The notes beneath the pieces are model-generated. The model was not told where the DNA came from, did not search any database, and was given only the letters and a program-made list of their open reading frames with translations. From Malus domestica (lineage: Eukaryota; Streptophyta; Magnoliopsida; Rosales; Rosaceae), in contig NC_091677.1 in the NCBI RefSeq assembly GCF_042453785.1, positions 6,481,501 through 6,545,500 of the forward strand: DNA of 64,000 nucleotides, given 5' to 3'. Positions within the stretch are counted from its first letter, which is position 1. Each line of letters starts with the position of its first letter. The position numbers were made by a program, and so were the translations under genes. Of this stretch, positions 12,251 to 30,673 are shown one piece after another.

Positions 12251-14078
12251 TCACACACCAAATTCAAAATCTCTATCATTATTCATAGTTTTTTGTTCCT
12301 TCTTCACCAACGCTTGTTCATGGGGTGTTTCCGGCACTTCTTCTGTGTCTCCTTCAACATGCGAGTCGTGAATGGGTATATAGTGTAGATGGGTGTTGTT
12401 CATGACAACTTCTGGACTGACAGACACAACTCTAAATTTAGAACAATCTTTGACAATATTCCAACATTCCCACCGGGTGAATGATTTGTTTTTGTTTTTG
12501 GTTTTGACATTATACCAAGCTTGTGCTTGAAGTATCTACACAATGTAGGAGAAGAAATAATTATAATCAAAGTAGTTAACAAATAAATAATACAAACAAA
12601 TAATTATAATGTAAATTTGGGTACAGTCAAGGTTCTAAAAAACACTAGGCGCTAGTCGGGCGGTTGGCTGGCTCCTAGCGCCTAGGCGGTTAGGCGGGAT
12701 CTAGGCGGGTGCCTAGGTGGATTTATCTTGTAAATAAGTACACATAAAAAATTATACTTGTATAAAATCCATGAATAAGATAATAAAAGAATTATAAAAT
12801 ACAAAAAAAGTATCTAACAAGTGTTCAAAATTTAAAAACACATTAAACATATATGCTATATAACTTAAGATATTTTAAATGATTATATCTTATTTTTGAA
12901 ACATAAAAAGTAAAAATCTCACCCAAAACCGATCAGAAACCTATATATCAATTGAAAGTTGAGCTTGAGGTCAGGAAATCATGAAAAAGCAATTATGAAG
13001 AGGTGCATGCATCCTTTCTTCCCCATTTCATAAAGCACCACGTGTGTGGTGGTGTGACCCCTCCCCTCCACCTATAGTCCCCATCACTCAAATCAGCCTA
13101 GAGACTCCCAAACCATTTTGACAAAATCGGAAAACTTTTCTTCTTTTTTTATTCTTTCCCTTTTCTCATCGTCTTCATTTTCTTTTTGTTTCCTCTTCGT
13201 CAGTTTATCTTCTTTTTTTTTCTTTTTTTTTTTCCGTTTTCCTTCTGTAAATTCTTCCTTTTTTTTTTTGGTTTCCTCTTCTTCTGTTTTGCATTGTAAC
13301 CAACATTTTTGAGATCAACCGCTTTGCCTCTGTCTAAAACCACGGCGGACATTCAAACTCCGCCTTGAAAACCTTCATGTACAAGTTCATTAGATTCTCA
13401 TCCTGGAACGGCATAAACCTAGCCAGCAAAACGAACAGCACAACTCCGCACGACCAGATATCCGCCTTAGATCCATCGTACCCCTTCTTCCTCAGCACCT
13501 TTGGCGCCACGTAAGCAGGAGTTCCACACTGGGTGTGCAGAAGCCCGTCGTTCCAGAGCTACTTTGGCAGAGCGAAGAGTCCGAATCCAGGAAACCATTT
13601 CACTCCGCCTAGACCGCCGCCTAGACCGCCCAGGCCGCCTAAGAGCGCCTAGGCGGACACCTAATAGCTCCCCGATTTTTCTTAACGATTTGGACCTAAT
13701 CGGATCGGCACACCTACGCCCAACGCCTAAGCGGCCGCCTAGGCCGCTTTTTAGAACACTGGGTATAGTACAAACAAATAAATAATATATTGTTACCTGA
13801 TCCGCTAAATTTTCCCCACTTTGAAGATTAGCACTAGCTTGTGCCAAGGCGTCTCTCCAAAGACTAAACGATTGGCTGAGTATTATCCAACGACTGAACA
13901 TCGATTCTTTAGTTCTTTTCCCACCAATTTTCTCAAGATAATTGGTATGAATAAGACTCCACATTTCTCGCAATTGCATCTCATTACCTGTAATCGGATC
14001 ATGAGTAACTTCAACCCAGCTAGAACACAACGTAACATCTTCAAGAAGCGTCCAATTTGTACCTACATCATTAATCAT
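12251..14078 (-). CDS. PIF/Harbinger ORF1-type Myb/SANT-like protein
   Basis: Two exons, 13797-14078 and 12251-12535, joined in phase 0 with GT and AG borders, give 188 aa with no stop. The first exon has the trihelix/SANT-like signature [13 protein letters not shown], then [17 protein letters not shown] and [15 protein letters not shown] residues (seen as [19 protein letters not shown]). The second continues [20 protein letters not shown] and [11 protein letters not shown], then an acidic tail. Proteins of this kind accompany PIF/Harbinger transposases and are often mis-annotated as glutathione S-transferase T3-like. Such proteins usually have a longer, basic C-terminus; here it stops soon after VPETPHEQ. 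The intron holds a hAT element. The start ATG at 14078 is the first in frame; the frame is open slightly further upstream. Confidence 0.65.
12628..13761. mobile_element. hAT-type element carrying a kinase gene fragment (Pack-hAT)
   Basis: 1134 bp. Left end CAAGGTTCTAAAAAACACT, right end in reverse complement CAGTGTTCTAAAAAGCGG. The 8-bp flanks GGTACAGT (12620-12627) and GGTATAGT (13762-13769) match at 7 of 8 positions, the hAT TSD length. Both subterminal regions are dense in CCTAGGCG/CGCCTAGG-type palindromes. The interior contains part of a CIPK kinase gene (13300-13601). It sits in the intron of the ORF1 gene. No transposase. Confidence 0.8.
13300..13601 (-). pseudogene. Captured fragment of a CBL-interacting protein kinase (CIPK) gene
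   Basis: Read on the minus strand this encodes the activation segment to subdomain X of a SnRK3/CIPK kinase: a diverged DFG region (GFGLFALPK), then a TAG, then [38 protein letters not shown] and the [19 protein letters not shown] block, PPWF, a second TAG, and [11 protein letters not shown]. CIPKs have DFGLSALPKQ and GTPxYVAPEVL here, so the DFG Asp, the APE Glu and two sense codons (Gln, Ser) are lost. It is a single exon-like piece inside a hAT element, so it is a captured, non-functional copy. The source gene is not in this window. Confidence 0.8.
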
Positions 14079-14448
14079 TTTGTTGGAAACCAATTTGATT
14101 GAAACTTTGAGAGAAAGATTGGAATATGGTTGAAAGTATTTGAGAAAATATAAAATTGTGGTTGAAACTTTGAGAAAATATGAAATTATGGTTGAAAGTA
14201 TTTGAGAGAAAGATTGGAATAAGGTTGAAGCAAGGAAGAAAATGCCGATAATATTGGCGAAATATCGCCGATATTATCGGTTTTTCACGGTAACGATATT
14301 TTAATAGGTATCCAATTGGGTTTCGTCTAAATATCGTGATATTATCGATAATATCGCGATATTTCCGAAACTATCGCGATATTTCCGAAACTATCGCGAT
14401 ATTTTTTATAATATCGCCAGATCAAAACCCAAAAATATTTAAAAAATG

Positions 14449-14507
14449 CTGAGAAGTCTCAACAGATAACTACATTTGATCTTAGCCAAAAGGGCCGAGC
14501 AAGGCAT
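14449..14507 (-). pseudogene. U2 snRNA-like 5' sequence
   Basis: On the minus strand the sequence starts ATGCCTTGCTCGGCC and runs CTTTTGGCTAAGATCAAATG, against plant U2 snRNA AUACCUUUCUCGGCC and UUUUGGCUAAGAUCAAGUG. Similarity lasts about 45 nt and then fades; the Sm site and stem-loops III and IV are missing. One C is inserted in the first stem region and one T within the branch-point pairing element (GTAGTTA instead of GTAGTA). So it is a truncated, mutated U2 copy. It is correctly placed downstream of a snRNA promoter (next entry), with its 5' end 32 bp from the TATA box. Confidence 0.7.
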
Positions 14508-14531
14508 GCTTTTCACAGCTTAGGAATGTGG

Positions 14532-14753
14532 CTTTTATAGGCCTGTTTGCTTGCTCACTTCCCTTGCGTGGGCGATGTGGGATTACAGAAACCAAGCTTG
14601 GGAATGTGGCTTTTATAGGCCTGTTTCCTTGCTCACTGCCCTTGCGTGGGCGATGTGGGATTACATAAACGAGATTACAGAAACCAAGCTTGGGAATGTG
14701 GCTTTTATAGGCCTGTTTCCTTGCTCACTGCCCTTACGTGGGCGATGTGGGAT
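14532..14753 (-). promoter_or_regulatory. Three tandem plant snRNA promoters (USE + TATA)
   Basis: On the minus strand, ATCCCACATCG, matching the plant snRNA upstream sequence element (RTCCCACATCG), occurs at 14743-14753, 14651-14661 and 14573-14583. Each is followed by TATAAAAG (14702-14709, 14610-14617, 14532-14539). In the copy next to the U2-like sequence the gap between USE and TATA is 33 bp, the spacing of Pol II-type snRNA genes (U6-type Pol III genes have about 10 bp less). Units repeat at 78 and 92 bp; the longer one contains a 14-bp internal duplication. Only the last unit is followed by a U2-like start. Confidence 0.75.
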
Positions 14754-16290
14754 TACAGAAACCAAAACGTTTTGTTGCGACTTGCGAGGGCTGGTACATG
14801 TGAACTTGTGACTCCAACTAGGTAAGACTTAAGAGCCAGATCTAATTTGGGGCCTTTTATCCTATATTTGTGGACAACGATCAAATGCTAAAGATTAAAC
14901 AAACATAATATGTTCTACTGCTTAGCAAAAAAAGCTACAAACCCTTTGCTTATCAACAAAAAAAAGACAAGTCCTTGCACTAGATATACTTTCAAATTAC
15001 GTTGAGTAGCAACCTGATATATGTATTCGGACGAATTATAAAACAATTGACACACTCCTGGCTTCCAAAATTCAATTCTTTTACTTTATATAAACTTGAA
15101 AAAACATAATCGGCATCCAAATTAAAGTTTAGTCTTATTCAACATATTGATTTTCAATCGTTAATTGATATACTATAATTTGGAACTTTAACGCCTAGAC
15201 GCATGCTTATGTGTAAGAAATTTAAAGTGTCAAATTCGGCACATTATTCTTCATCATTTTATTCACTTCCTTTTTTTTTTTAATATCCTAAATAAAACCT
15301 CCCAATATTGTACTAATTAATTATATATAAATGATTATGGTGTGTTTAAACTTCTTTCATTAATTACTACATATTTTCTACACTCACAATGTTTGCCAGC
15401 TCGCTATATAATCAACTTAAATCAGTTAAATCCATAATGCAATGCATTTCCTTCCAATTTTTTATGATAAACTAATAGATAATTGACTAAATAAACATCC
15501 TGCAAAGTTTCATTAAAAATTTCCAAGTTTTTCTTACAATTTCCATGGTTTCCATGTAATTTTTATCGATATCGATATTATCCCGATATTTCCATCGATA
15601 TTTCAGTGTTTTTAGACTACCGATATTTCCGATCTTACCTATATTTTCTTCCTTGGGTAGAAGATATATTTATAGAAAAGTAAAATCAATTTATTTATTT
15701 TTATTTTTTAATTTTTTTTCTGATTTTTTATTAACTTAATTAATTTCTGCCGTTGGATTAAAAAAATTGAAATCCAACCGTCCAGATTGTGCCATGTGGC
15801 ACAACGGTAACTTTTCAGATTTTTTAAATGTTAATTTTTTTTAATTTAGAAAGGCGAATAACATGGACAGTTGATCTCAAATCTAACGGCTGATATTTAG
15901 GAAGGTTTCAATTTTTTTTTACCTTTGGAAATCCAACGGTCAAGAACAAGTAACCGTTGAAATCCAACGGCTGAGACAAAGCCACGTGGCCTCCAACGGT
16001 AACATTACGCACACCTGCACTGCAGGCCCCAACGCTTGAAACATGTCGAGGACGCGCCCCCACGCGTGCGTGTTATGCACGCACCTGACTAAAAAAATAA
16101 TAAAACGTGGCTGACGTCGCCCTGATGTCAGCGTTGCATCACCCCCACCTCGGGCTAGGGATTCTCGTTGGGCCTCTTGCTCAGGCCCCCTCCTGCGCAA
16201 TCACCCGCATGGGCTGGACATGATTGCTAGGGCAATTGCCCCTTGTTCTGGAGCCGGTCCATCGGGCTATGGAGCACTGTGGAGTTGCCC

Positions 16291-16619: not shown

Positions 16620-17135
16620 TTATCTGCCCCTCAACAATGCCTTCTCTGCAGTTTCCACCTCTTCCAAAATCCTCGCCTTTCTCTTTGCAGGAAGCGGAGC
16701 AGTCGGTCCAAAACTGACATAATGCCCTGAAACTGCATTGATTGCGGAGTAAATGTCCCTAAAAGAAACCCTACCGAGCAGAGTCTTCTCCCTCCTGTAC
16801 TTGGCCACCCATGAGTTTGATGTTTCTCTGAGCTCCGCCACTGCAGAAGCCACATTGGGGTCGTTCCTATCCATGTTAATGGTGGTTTTGACCTTGTTTA
16901 TCACCTCCTCCGTTTCTTTTACGTACTCCTCGTCCGAAGCGGCAAATGCAGCTGGTGTGAGCGGGAAGAGCCATGCTGGCGAGGACAGAGTTGCTGCAGC
17001 TGCTGCCGCCACGAACGATAAGAATTCGCGGCGTCGAGGTTGTGGGATTGTGGCGGTGGCGGTGGATTTGGTGGACTTGATTGGTGGAAGAGATTTGAGT
17101 TTAGAGGTGGGAGTTAGGAGTGTTGGTGAGGCCAT
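16620..17135 (-). CDS. PSB27: Photosystem II repair/assembly protein Psb27, chloroplastic
   Basis: Intronless, 171 aa. Psb27 binds the lumenal side of CP43 in photosystem II intermediates and helps assembly of the Mn cluster and repair after photodamage. Residues 1-33 are a Ser/Thr/Pro-rich plastid transit peptide. A twin-arginine signal follows (RRREFLSF, residues 34-41) with an Ala-rich hydrophobic core ending in AFA at 63-65, so the mature protein probably enters the thylakoid lumen by the Tat route and starts near Ala66. The mature part carries the family blocks NDPNVASAVAELRETSNSW, VAKYRREKTLLGR, FRDIYSAINAVSGHYVSFG and PAKRKARILEEVETAEKAL. Length fits plant Psb27-H1. The open frame continues upstream, but the ATG at 17135 gives the transit peptide. 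A light-type promoter module lies about 80 bp upstream. Confidence 0.95.
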   Translation of the reverse strand: MASPTLLTPTSKLKSLPPIKSTKSTATATIPQPRRREFLSFVAAAAAATLSSPAWLFPLTPAAFAASDEEYVKETEEVINKVKTTINMDRNDPNVASAVAELRETSNSWVAKYRREKTLLGRVSFRDIYSAINAVSGHYVSFGPTAPLPAKRKARILEEVETAEKALLRGR

Positions 17136-17214
17136 GGTTGGGAGTGGAGGGAGAGAGGACTGGGGATGAGAGAGAGAATGTGTTTGTAGGAGTAACCAGT
17201 AATTGGATTTGTGC

Positions 17215-17243
17215 CACGTGTGCTTATCAGTTATCACCTTATC
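17215..17243 (-). promoter_or_regulatory. G-box and I-box module upstream of PSB27
   Basis: A CACGTG G-box (17215-17220, GCCACGTGT on the plus strand) is followed by two I-box/GATA motifs, CTTATC at 17223-17228 and 17238-17243 (GATAAG on the PSB27 strand). This pairing is known from light-regulated photosynthesis genes such as rbcS. Position about 80-110 bp upstream of the ATG suits a proximal promoter. Function is inferred. Confidence 0.6.
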
Positions 17244-29659: not shown

Positions 29660-30137
29660 CAAGGTCTAAAATATCGATATTATCTTGACATTTCCATCGA
29701 AATTTCCGTGTTTTTGGACTACCGATATTTCCGATATCATCGATATTTTAGACCTTGATAGGAACTCTATGGTACTAAGTCACTCATGTATCTTACAATG
29801 CAATGTATAAAGTGTAAAATATTGTACTAATTCATTATATATAAATGATTATGGTGTGTTTAAACTTATTTCATTAATTACTACATATTTTCTATACTCA
29901 CAATGTTTGCTAGCTCGCTATATAATCAACTTAAATCAATTAAATCCATCATGCAATGCATTTCCTTCAAATTTTTTGTGATAAACTAATAGATAATTGA
30001 CTAAATAAACATTCTGCAAAGTTTCAATAAAAATTTCAAAGTTTTTTTATTCAATTTTTATCGATATTGATAATATCATGATATTTCCGTGTTTTTGAAC
30101 TACCGATATTTCCGATATCATCGATATTTTAGACCTT
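29660..30137. mobile_element. hAT-type element, same family as 14231-15655
   Basis: Ends CAAGGTCTAAAATATCGAT and the reverse complement AAGGTCTAAAATATCGAT. AGTCGTAGG is present on both sides (29651-29659 and 30138-30146), an 8- or 9-bp TSD depending on whether the terminal C belongs to the element. Subterminal ATATCGATA repeats and a central AT-rich core match 15290-15560 nearly base for base over long runs. A second internal copy of the right end lies at about 29735-29757, followed by G, suggesting an end duplication. Confidence 0.7.
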
Positions 30138-30673
30138 AGTCGTAGGGGCCATTACAGCATCAAAATTGAGTGACAAATTACTCAATTTTCCAATTAAGTG
30201 GCATAATTTTGCAGCAATACCTAACATATAGGTGCCACTTGTAAGAATTTTCCTATGATACGACAACAATAAAGGGGTAGATGGAAAATTGCAATGTGGA
30301 AAATGACCCCATTAAATACCTTGTCAGTGAAGAAAAGGAAAGACCAAACCAGAAAAAAAGTATGTCTGCAGAAGATAAAGATGAAACCTTAAATGGCAGG
30401 CTCCTTTATAGCTAAACGCACCAGTGCTTTCAAAGTTGGCAGCAGTAAAATAATTTACAGTTTATGAACTCAAAAGCGACAGTGATATTGTAAATTAAGA
30501 AGATGAAGACACAGAAAAAAGCAGCTGAAATTAATGGTAATTACTCTTTGATTCACATTCACATAGGAATGTAGGCAGATCTGCACATCATTAATGGCCG
30601 CAGGGGTTGGTGGAACATATAGGCAGATTTTAATACGTTTAAAGTATAACTCAATTCAGTTTCCGAAAATAAA

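Follow-up and report, generated by a model that had tools for sequence, protein, structure and literature searches.

The window analysed in this study, a 64,000-nucleotide stretch of the Malus domestica genome (RefSeq assembly GCF_042453785.1, contig NC_091677.1, positions 6,481,501 to 6,545,500), holds a non-autonomous hAT element in whose shell lies the captured 5' part of a U2 snRNA gene. The element, on the minus strand, is delimited by its TIRs and by family boundaries common to many copies. Read from its 5' side, its features are as follows.

15656-15663, unstranded: TSD at the 5' side of the element, CTTCTACC, 8 bp, with one mismatch to CTTCAACC.
14231-15655, minus strand: the whole non-autonomous hAT element, subfamily A, 1,425 bp, with TIRs CAAGGAAGAAAAT... 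/ ...ATTTTCTTCCTTG.
15304-15655, minus strand: hAT 5' terminal region (shell), 352 bp, to which copies of subfamilies B, C, and D and a relative lacking the block also have a counterpart.
14754-15270, minus strand: 5' flanking DNA captured from a U2 snRNA locus, by alignment to locus L080.
14702-14753, minus strand: distal promoter module, USE at 14753-14743, 33 nt, then TATAAAAG at 14709-14702.
14610-14661, minus strand: middle promoter module, USE at 14661-14651, 33 nt, then TATAAAAG at 14617-14610.
14532-14583, minus strand: proximal promoter module, USE at 14583-14573, 33 nt, then TATAAAAG at 14539-14532.
14461-14507, minus strand: U2-like 5' end, comprising stem-loop I and the branch-site-pairing element with an extra T, by comparison with Rfam U2 and U2 loci of the same genome.
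14448-14463, minus strand: small hairpin GUUGAG-ACUU-CUCAGC at the place of U2 stem II, in a predicted fold.
14428-14436, minus strand: Sm-site-like AUUUUUGGG, a candidate by its match to the Sm consensus.
14231-14427, minus strand: hAT 3' terminal region, about 200 bp of shell, with ATATCGCGATA-type palindromes and the 3' TIR.
14223-14230, unstranded: TSD at the 3' side, CTTCAACC, matching the other side at 7 of 8 bases.

The ends have the form expected of a hAT element, with CAAGGAAGAAAAT... and its reverse complement at opposite ends and palindromes in subterminal position. A relative in the same window, at 29660-30138 (TIR AAGGTCTAAAATATCG; TSD cctacgac, read by eye), contains no match to the promoter/U2 block, as an earlier, sequence-only reading of this DNA had pointed out; its own 5' end is repeated once internally. 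In long A copies, such as L048 (1764-2489), TTGGTTTCTGTAATCCCAC occurs twice upstream of the promoters and encloses roughly 700 bp of additional DNA, which the window element does not have. No autonomous partner of the element was found among the hAT dimerisation-domain matches in the genome, of which there are at least 150 (from 1,495 candidates); these are domain matches only, none of them tied to the TIRs of the element. The upstream neighbor is an open frame for the photosystem II protein Psb27 (16620-17237, minus strand; Pfam PF13326, E 3e-35). An ORF at 13467-14093 (minus strand) begins about 140 bp beyond the 3' end of the element, on the strand and in the direction of its promoter; the ORF has no Pfam match and resembles plant Myb/NAM-associated proteins.

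The three USE copies reported by the earlier reading, each ahead of a TATA box on the minus strand, are all present, in a block (14753-14461) where the modules are followed by about 47 nt of U2 5' end. The USE is ATCCCACATCG in every module. The 33-nt USE-TATA spacing that had been claimed for the U2-proximal module is exact there and equally so in the other two. Counted from the first base of the proximal TATA, the U2-like sequence begins 32 nt downstream, at 14507, just as proposed, which places it 277 bp inside the 3' end of the element with the promoter oriented outward. A USE-TATA gap of 33 nt was likewise found in 78/78 element promoters with a recognizable USE, over all four subfamilies (A to D). 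Of the 102 hits to the loose TATA pattern, a further 23 lacked a USE and, by eye, any element context, and one was at the native U2 locus in L013, with a 23-nt gap. Waibel and Filipowicz are said to have set out in 1990 the rule that plant snRNA promoters of the Pol II type have a spacing of 33 to 34 nt and those of the Pol III type one of 23 to 24 nt. By that rule, the element promoters have the spacing of Pol II snRNA genes (about 33 to 34 nt). Those U2 loci of the same genome in which a USE was found have gaps of 31 to 34 nt, with one exception at 23 nt.

The promoter modules recur as tandem units of 78 or 92 nt in subfamily A, in two, three, or seven copies, and of 61 nt in subfamily C, where they have a separate origin, so the promoters have been multiplied at least twice in this family. 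The longest array, in L004 (C10:18.614 Mb), comprises seven tandem USE-TATA modules in one element, all with the 33-nt spacing. Another locus on the same contig, L075 (C10:9.369 Mb), is rearranged: it has modules in both orientations, one of them without a USE, and U2 starts fused to hAT palindromes.

The U2 part of the window element is short. Its score against the Rfam U2 model (RF00004) fell short of the gathering threshold of 46, at 38.1 bits (E 4e-6, 601 bases searched), and no family in Rfam, 5S included, had a gathering-level match anywhere in the window. The similarity claimed for 45 to 60 nt therefore stands as similarity, below the cut-off, and its credible length is about 47 nt (14507-14461), since the remainder of the model alignment lies on hAT palindromes; a full U2 gene in the window is ruled out by the score and by this length. 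The extra T reported in the branch-point pairing element is real (GTAGTTA) and marks subfamily A, being absent from B, and an extra C in the loop of stem-loop I is likewise typical of the subfamily to which the window copy belongs. Some C- and D-type elements exceed the Rfam U2 cut-off (for example, L029, L032-L034, L038, and L024-L027).

Plant snRNA genes use the USE and TATA for their start and, for their end, a 3' box of consensus CA(N)3-10AGTNNAA located after the RNA (PMC5079582). Such a box begins at +177 to +198 in 7 of 11 U2 loci of this genome. It was not found within 300 nt in 35/40 element copies, the window copy (L001) among them, and four of the five copies that have one are a single sequence, at +135 to +157. 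With its U2 truncated and the 3' box mostly missing, the window element is not a working snRNA gene.

The source of the captured DNA is indicated by a locus elsewhere in the genome. L080 (C16:13062668) has the same promoter, after which the U2 sequence extends further and has diverged more (35.2 bits), and no hAT shell occurs in the 2.2 kb fetched around it. Positions 1205-1674 of L080 align with positions 386-902 of the element (15270-14754 of the window), with 352/430 aligned bases identical (82%) and 127 gap columns, and the three window promoters match that of L080 at 53, 54, and 56 of 61 bases; boundaries were set without those local alignments of L080 that ran too long. Because 15270-14754 aligns with the L080 flank, this part of the element interior is the 5' flank of a U2 locus and not anonymous transposon DNA. 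The earlier suggestion of an snRNA cargo is thus borne out for the promoter and the U2 start and falls short in extent, since about 520 bp of flank was captured as well. That transfer went from a host U2 locus into a hAT element is indicated by the 5' shell, which also occurs in copies lacking U2 (such as 29660-30138), and by the lack of a shell at L080. It is conceivable that L080 is itself an ancient element stripped of both ends, but its similarity to U2 continues past the position at which that of A and B copies stops, and this favors a host locus.

A second, separate capture is read from the sequences of subfamily D (L024-L027 and L036), whose U2 piece differs from that of A, B, and C. 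The D copy L026 matches the region between about -380 and +94 of the U2 locus L010 (375/497 alignment columns identical), and its missing end was located in L059, giving an exact TSD, GTTCTAAG. L026 and L059 together (C15:19967176-19969507) form a 2.3-kb D-type Pack-hAT containing gene-like DNA and, downstream of it, the 5' part of a U2 gene; the gene-like DNA presumably resembles a QWRF/AUGMIN8-type first exon, and none of the D cargo ORFs tested has a Pfam match. At the 3' joint of D the U2 sequence reads CACGATATTA, and CGATATTA is common to U2 and the hAT subterminal repeat, so that this joint may have been made by microhomology-guided joining. In a small tree built from promoters and U2 5' ends, D falls outside a group made up of A, B, and C (0.907), with weak support elsewhere. 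Descent of A, B, and C from D is disfavored, as D is nearer to L010 (0.788) than to A, B, or C (0.64 to 0.66), with the deeper nodes weak. Each capture therefore has a gene fragment within TIRs and TSDs and a donor-type locus outside the element, namely L080 for A and B and an L010-type locus for D, as in Pack-TYPE hAT elements.

Native U2 loci also occur next to the family. At L013 (C13, ~11.503 Mb), a B-type element (2918-1812, exact TSD GTTAAGAG) has inserted some 50 bp ahead of the USE at a native U2 locus. The U2 of this locus starts at ~1697, and its USE-TATA gap is 23 nt, a Pol III-like value rather than one of 31 to 34 nt. L013 was considered as an element with a full-length U2 and rejected, as the U2 locus lies just outside and downstream of the inserted element. 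On the same contig, the intervals 11.498-11.504 and 11.638-11.643 Mb (L009, L012, L010, L013, and L016) contain two opposite-facing U2 groups about 140 kb apart, an arrangement resembling an inverted duplication.

The structure of the family and its spread through the genome are firm. An exact 17-mer between TATA and start, TATAAAAGCCACATTCC, occurs at 77 sites in 651 Mb, and its reversed control at none, which rules out a chance motif match. The sites form 50 clusters on 17/17 large contigs, 32 of the clusters with one tag, 13 with two, 4 with three, and 1 with seven; all lie inside 49 fetched loci, L055 carrying two clusters. A USE stands 33 nt upstream at 76/77 tags, the remaining one being in the rearranged L075. 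Sequence of the hAT shell was present in 48/49 tag-bearing loci, with both shells in 41 and L080 as the exception, and so accompanies 49/50 clusters. A similarity search with the block, in which 40 of 171 candidates were scored, gave at least 42 pieces, and one with the proximal promoter plus U2, in which 40 of 123 were scored, gave at least 66 pieces, at least 40 of them with a U2-adjacent promoter; this coverage undercounts diverged copies. Both hAT ends and the 8-bp TSD typical of hAT elements were found for 40 of the 52 block copies examined (47 from A, B, and C and 5 from D), the TSD being exact in 36 and with one mismatch in 4, and among nine further loci for seven, exact in six. Some of the misses are copies whose ends fall outside the fetched stretch (L008, L044, and D copies), and the others include L047, L071, and L075. 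L041 has gttagcct at both sides.

The observations of the sequence-only reading are thereby confirmed and its interpretation is partly supported. Copies of the block are present by the dozen in hAT copies, so the block is not absent from the rest of the family, and the idea of a transposon that spreads an amplified snRNA promoter agrees with the tags, clusters, and shells counted above. The element did acquire the block, as proposed, in an ancestor of the family rather than in the window copy.

We consider it likely that these are Pack-type non-autonomous hAT elements that, having captured the 5' part of U2, spread an outward-facing and probably active Pol II snRNA promoter. An ancestral hAT shell (352 bp at the 5' side, about 200 bp at the 3' side) acquired the 5' part of a U2 gene of the host, consisting of some 520 bp of flanking DNA, the promoter with its USE and TATA, and, of U2 itself, the first ~45 to 60 nt or more. 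A hAT transposase made elsewhere, presumably a helper, would then have moved the element to about fifty places, while the subfamilies diverged and the promoter module was duplicated in tandem in A and separately in C. The promoter retains the elements and the spacing by which plant snRNA genes are assigned to RNA polymerase II, and capped transcripts most likely still start near 14507. As the element usually has no 3' box, such a transcript would usually pass the 3' end of the element and run on into flanking DNA. Each copy would accordingly be a mobile outward promoter and not an snRNA gene.

An explanation with the same structure and a different view of activity, to which we give a little less than an even chance, is that the U2 fragment is an inert passenger, a cargo silenced as other transposons are, whose motifs look intact only through the youth of the copies or uneven mutation. 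Gene fragments are common in Pack-type elements (PMC8903248). The 33-nt spacing shared by all 78 promoters across four subfamilies argues against this view, as does the repeated multiplication of the promoter.

On whether the promoter is conserved, the tests disagree. Between the consensus sequences of A, B, and C, differences fall in 0/17 columns of USE plus TATA and in 16/57 columns of spacer (p 0.016), and among 49 copies, from which the motif filter removed no locus, deviating letters number 11/833 and 105/2,793, respectively (p 2e-4), or 6/735 and 98/2,695 without CpG. A version with 35 copies gave 0/17 and 17/58 columns and 7/595 and 66/2,030 letters. These p-values are optimistic, since the copies share ancestry. 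Ten A copies have 0 indel events and 29 substitutions in the block compared with 28 and 133 in other regions, which, like the lower deviation of motif letters, is not what a passive cargo would lead one to expect. Ten B copies gave indels/substitutions of 1/16 in the block, 1/26 in the 5' 300 bp, 14/102 in the 3' part, and 73/6 in the length-variable 300-700 region, and these indel counts add nothing. On the side of the passenger, recent A copies diverge by only 2 to 4% in interior and promoter, and the promoter is not the lower of the two: pairwise divergence is 0.037 to 0.040 in the promoter, 0.017 to 0.024 in the adjoining interior, and 0.023 in the U2-like part, with the ends of L043, L044, L047, and L049 roughly set and the 5'-most and 3'-most rows unreliable. 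Purifying selection on the promoter among young copies is therefore unseen in pairwise divergence. A McDonald-Kreitman-like contrast of fixed and copy-level differences was not significant (p 0.36), nor was the number of columns with any deviation (7/17 compared with 35/57; p 0.17). The USE is no outlier among 10-nt windows, 24/96 of which deviate as little or less, and the TATA is nearly one (3/99). That USE and TATA vary less than their spacers is, taken together, suggestive only.

Two further proposals concern the RNA itself. In the first, which we consider improbable, the promoter would drive the palindromic 3' end of the element as a source of hairpin siRNA or miRNA directed against hAT ends. 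Long palindromes do lie directly downstream of the predicted start, and the USE motif drives MIRNA loci in Cuscuta (PMC10226582). Those loci have features consistent with Pol III, whereas the element spacing is of the Pol II type by the rule given above, and Rfam miRNA matches are far below cut-off.

Slightly more doubtful still is the proposal that the element encodes a chimeric snRNP RNA, capped and Sm-bound, made up of the U2 5' end, the short hairpin, an Sm site, and a long 3' stem-loop. All six pairs of the hairpin are retained in 37/41 A and B copies scored, and the putative Sm-like motif (AUUUUUGG type) is found in 34/41. The predicted 198-nt transcript also folds 5.0 standard deviations better than shuffles (z -5.0), with 0/200 shuffles as good. 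This stable fold, however, comes from palindromes in the subterminal parts of the hAT element, and these are features of the DNA; over the first 77 nt the fold has no advantage over shuffled sequences (z -0.75). In the outer stem, judged by eye, A and C keep pairing with changes on both strands and B and A2 do not clearly do so, so that the stem is not retained across all subfamilies. Together with the scarcity of the 3' box, the 77-nt fold and this mixed covariation leave the reading of the U2-like part as a conserved snRNP RNA unsupported. Finally, that the arrangement is coincidence, or a hAT element inserted beside a U2 pseudogene, as a U2 score under the Rfam cut-off might suggest, is refuted by its recurrence in 49/50 clusters with separate TSDs wherever ends were found.

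The mobile, probably active promoter remains our preferred reading. It has a stronger form, which we regard as unlikely, in which a Pol II snRNA promoter has become a permanent component of a DNA-transposon lineage, maintained by selection. The lineage would hold the USE-TATA geometry fixed, would have multiplied the promoter up to seven-fold, starting from two separate U2 captures, and would have seeded outward-facing promoters at roughly fifty loci; the promoter would benefit the element by keeping its ends transcribed and open or by making Sm-binding chimeric RNAs.

Provided that the promoters are active, a single transposon family has distributed dozens of snRNA-type promoters for capped RNA across the genome, each facing neighboring DNA. 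The family is a clean case of DNA transposons capturing non-coding RNA genes, with donor-type loci still present in the genome, and it makes testable the question, "does an snRNA promoter escape transposon silencing and aid the multiplication of its carrier?" Whether or not they are active, the copies can mislead U2 annotation, because several exceed the Rfam cut-off.

Several known systems resemble parts of this arrangement. SINEU elements are retrotransposons whose 5' part derives from an snRNA gene, with no TIRs, a TSD of variable length, and a 3' tail. The likeness is that of a mobile element with a 5' part taken from an snRNA gene, but the TIRs and the fixed 8-bp TSD exclude membership. 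Dada and Utopia are also transposons linked to snRNA genes, and they insert into such genes and do not carry them, unlike the element described here (PMC3706591; PMC4640811). The USE-driven MIRNA loci of Cuscuta are similar in reusing an snRNA promoter for other RNAs and differ in their features of Pol III rather than Pol II; transposons are not mentioned in that connection (PMC10226582).

The closest structural likeness is to Pack-TYPE hAT elements, which are non-autonomous, have TIRs and an 8-nt TSD, and contain an internal fragment of a host gene (PMC8903248). They are described as capturing coding DNA, whereas the family studied here has taken its cargo from the 5' side of a Pol II snRNA gene, with a promoter that is intact and multiplied; the word "snrna" is absent from the examined text of that paper. 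Among the matches listed from the open-licence literature, as far as their text was available, none described a captured U2 or snRNA promoter in a hAT or other plant DNA transposon. The Cassandra TRIM is likewise a plant transposon with an evolutionarily kept promoter of a host small RNA, in that case 5S (PMC10853983). Cassandra belongs to class I, with LTRs and a 5S promoter in its interior, whereas this family is class II, has a promoter of the Pol II type, and moves without RNA. Membership in Cassandra is excluded by the TIRs and by the absence of a 5S match at the Rfam cut-off in the window. Should the reading of a selected promoter prove true, the hAT family would be the class II counterpart of Cassandra.
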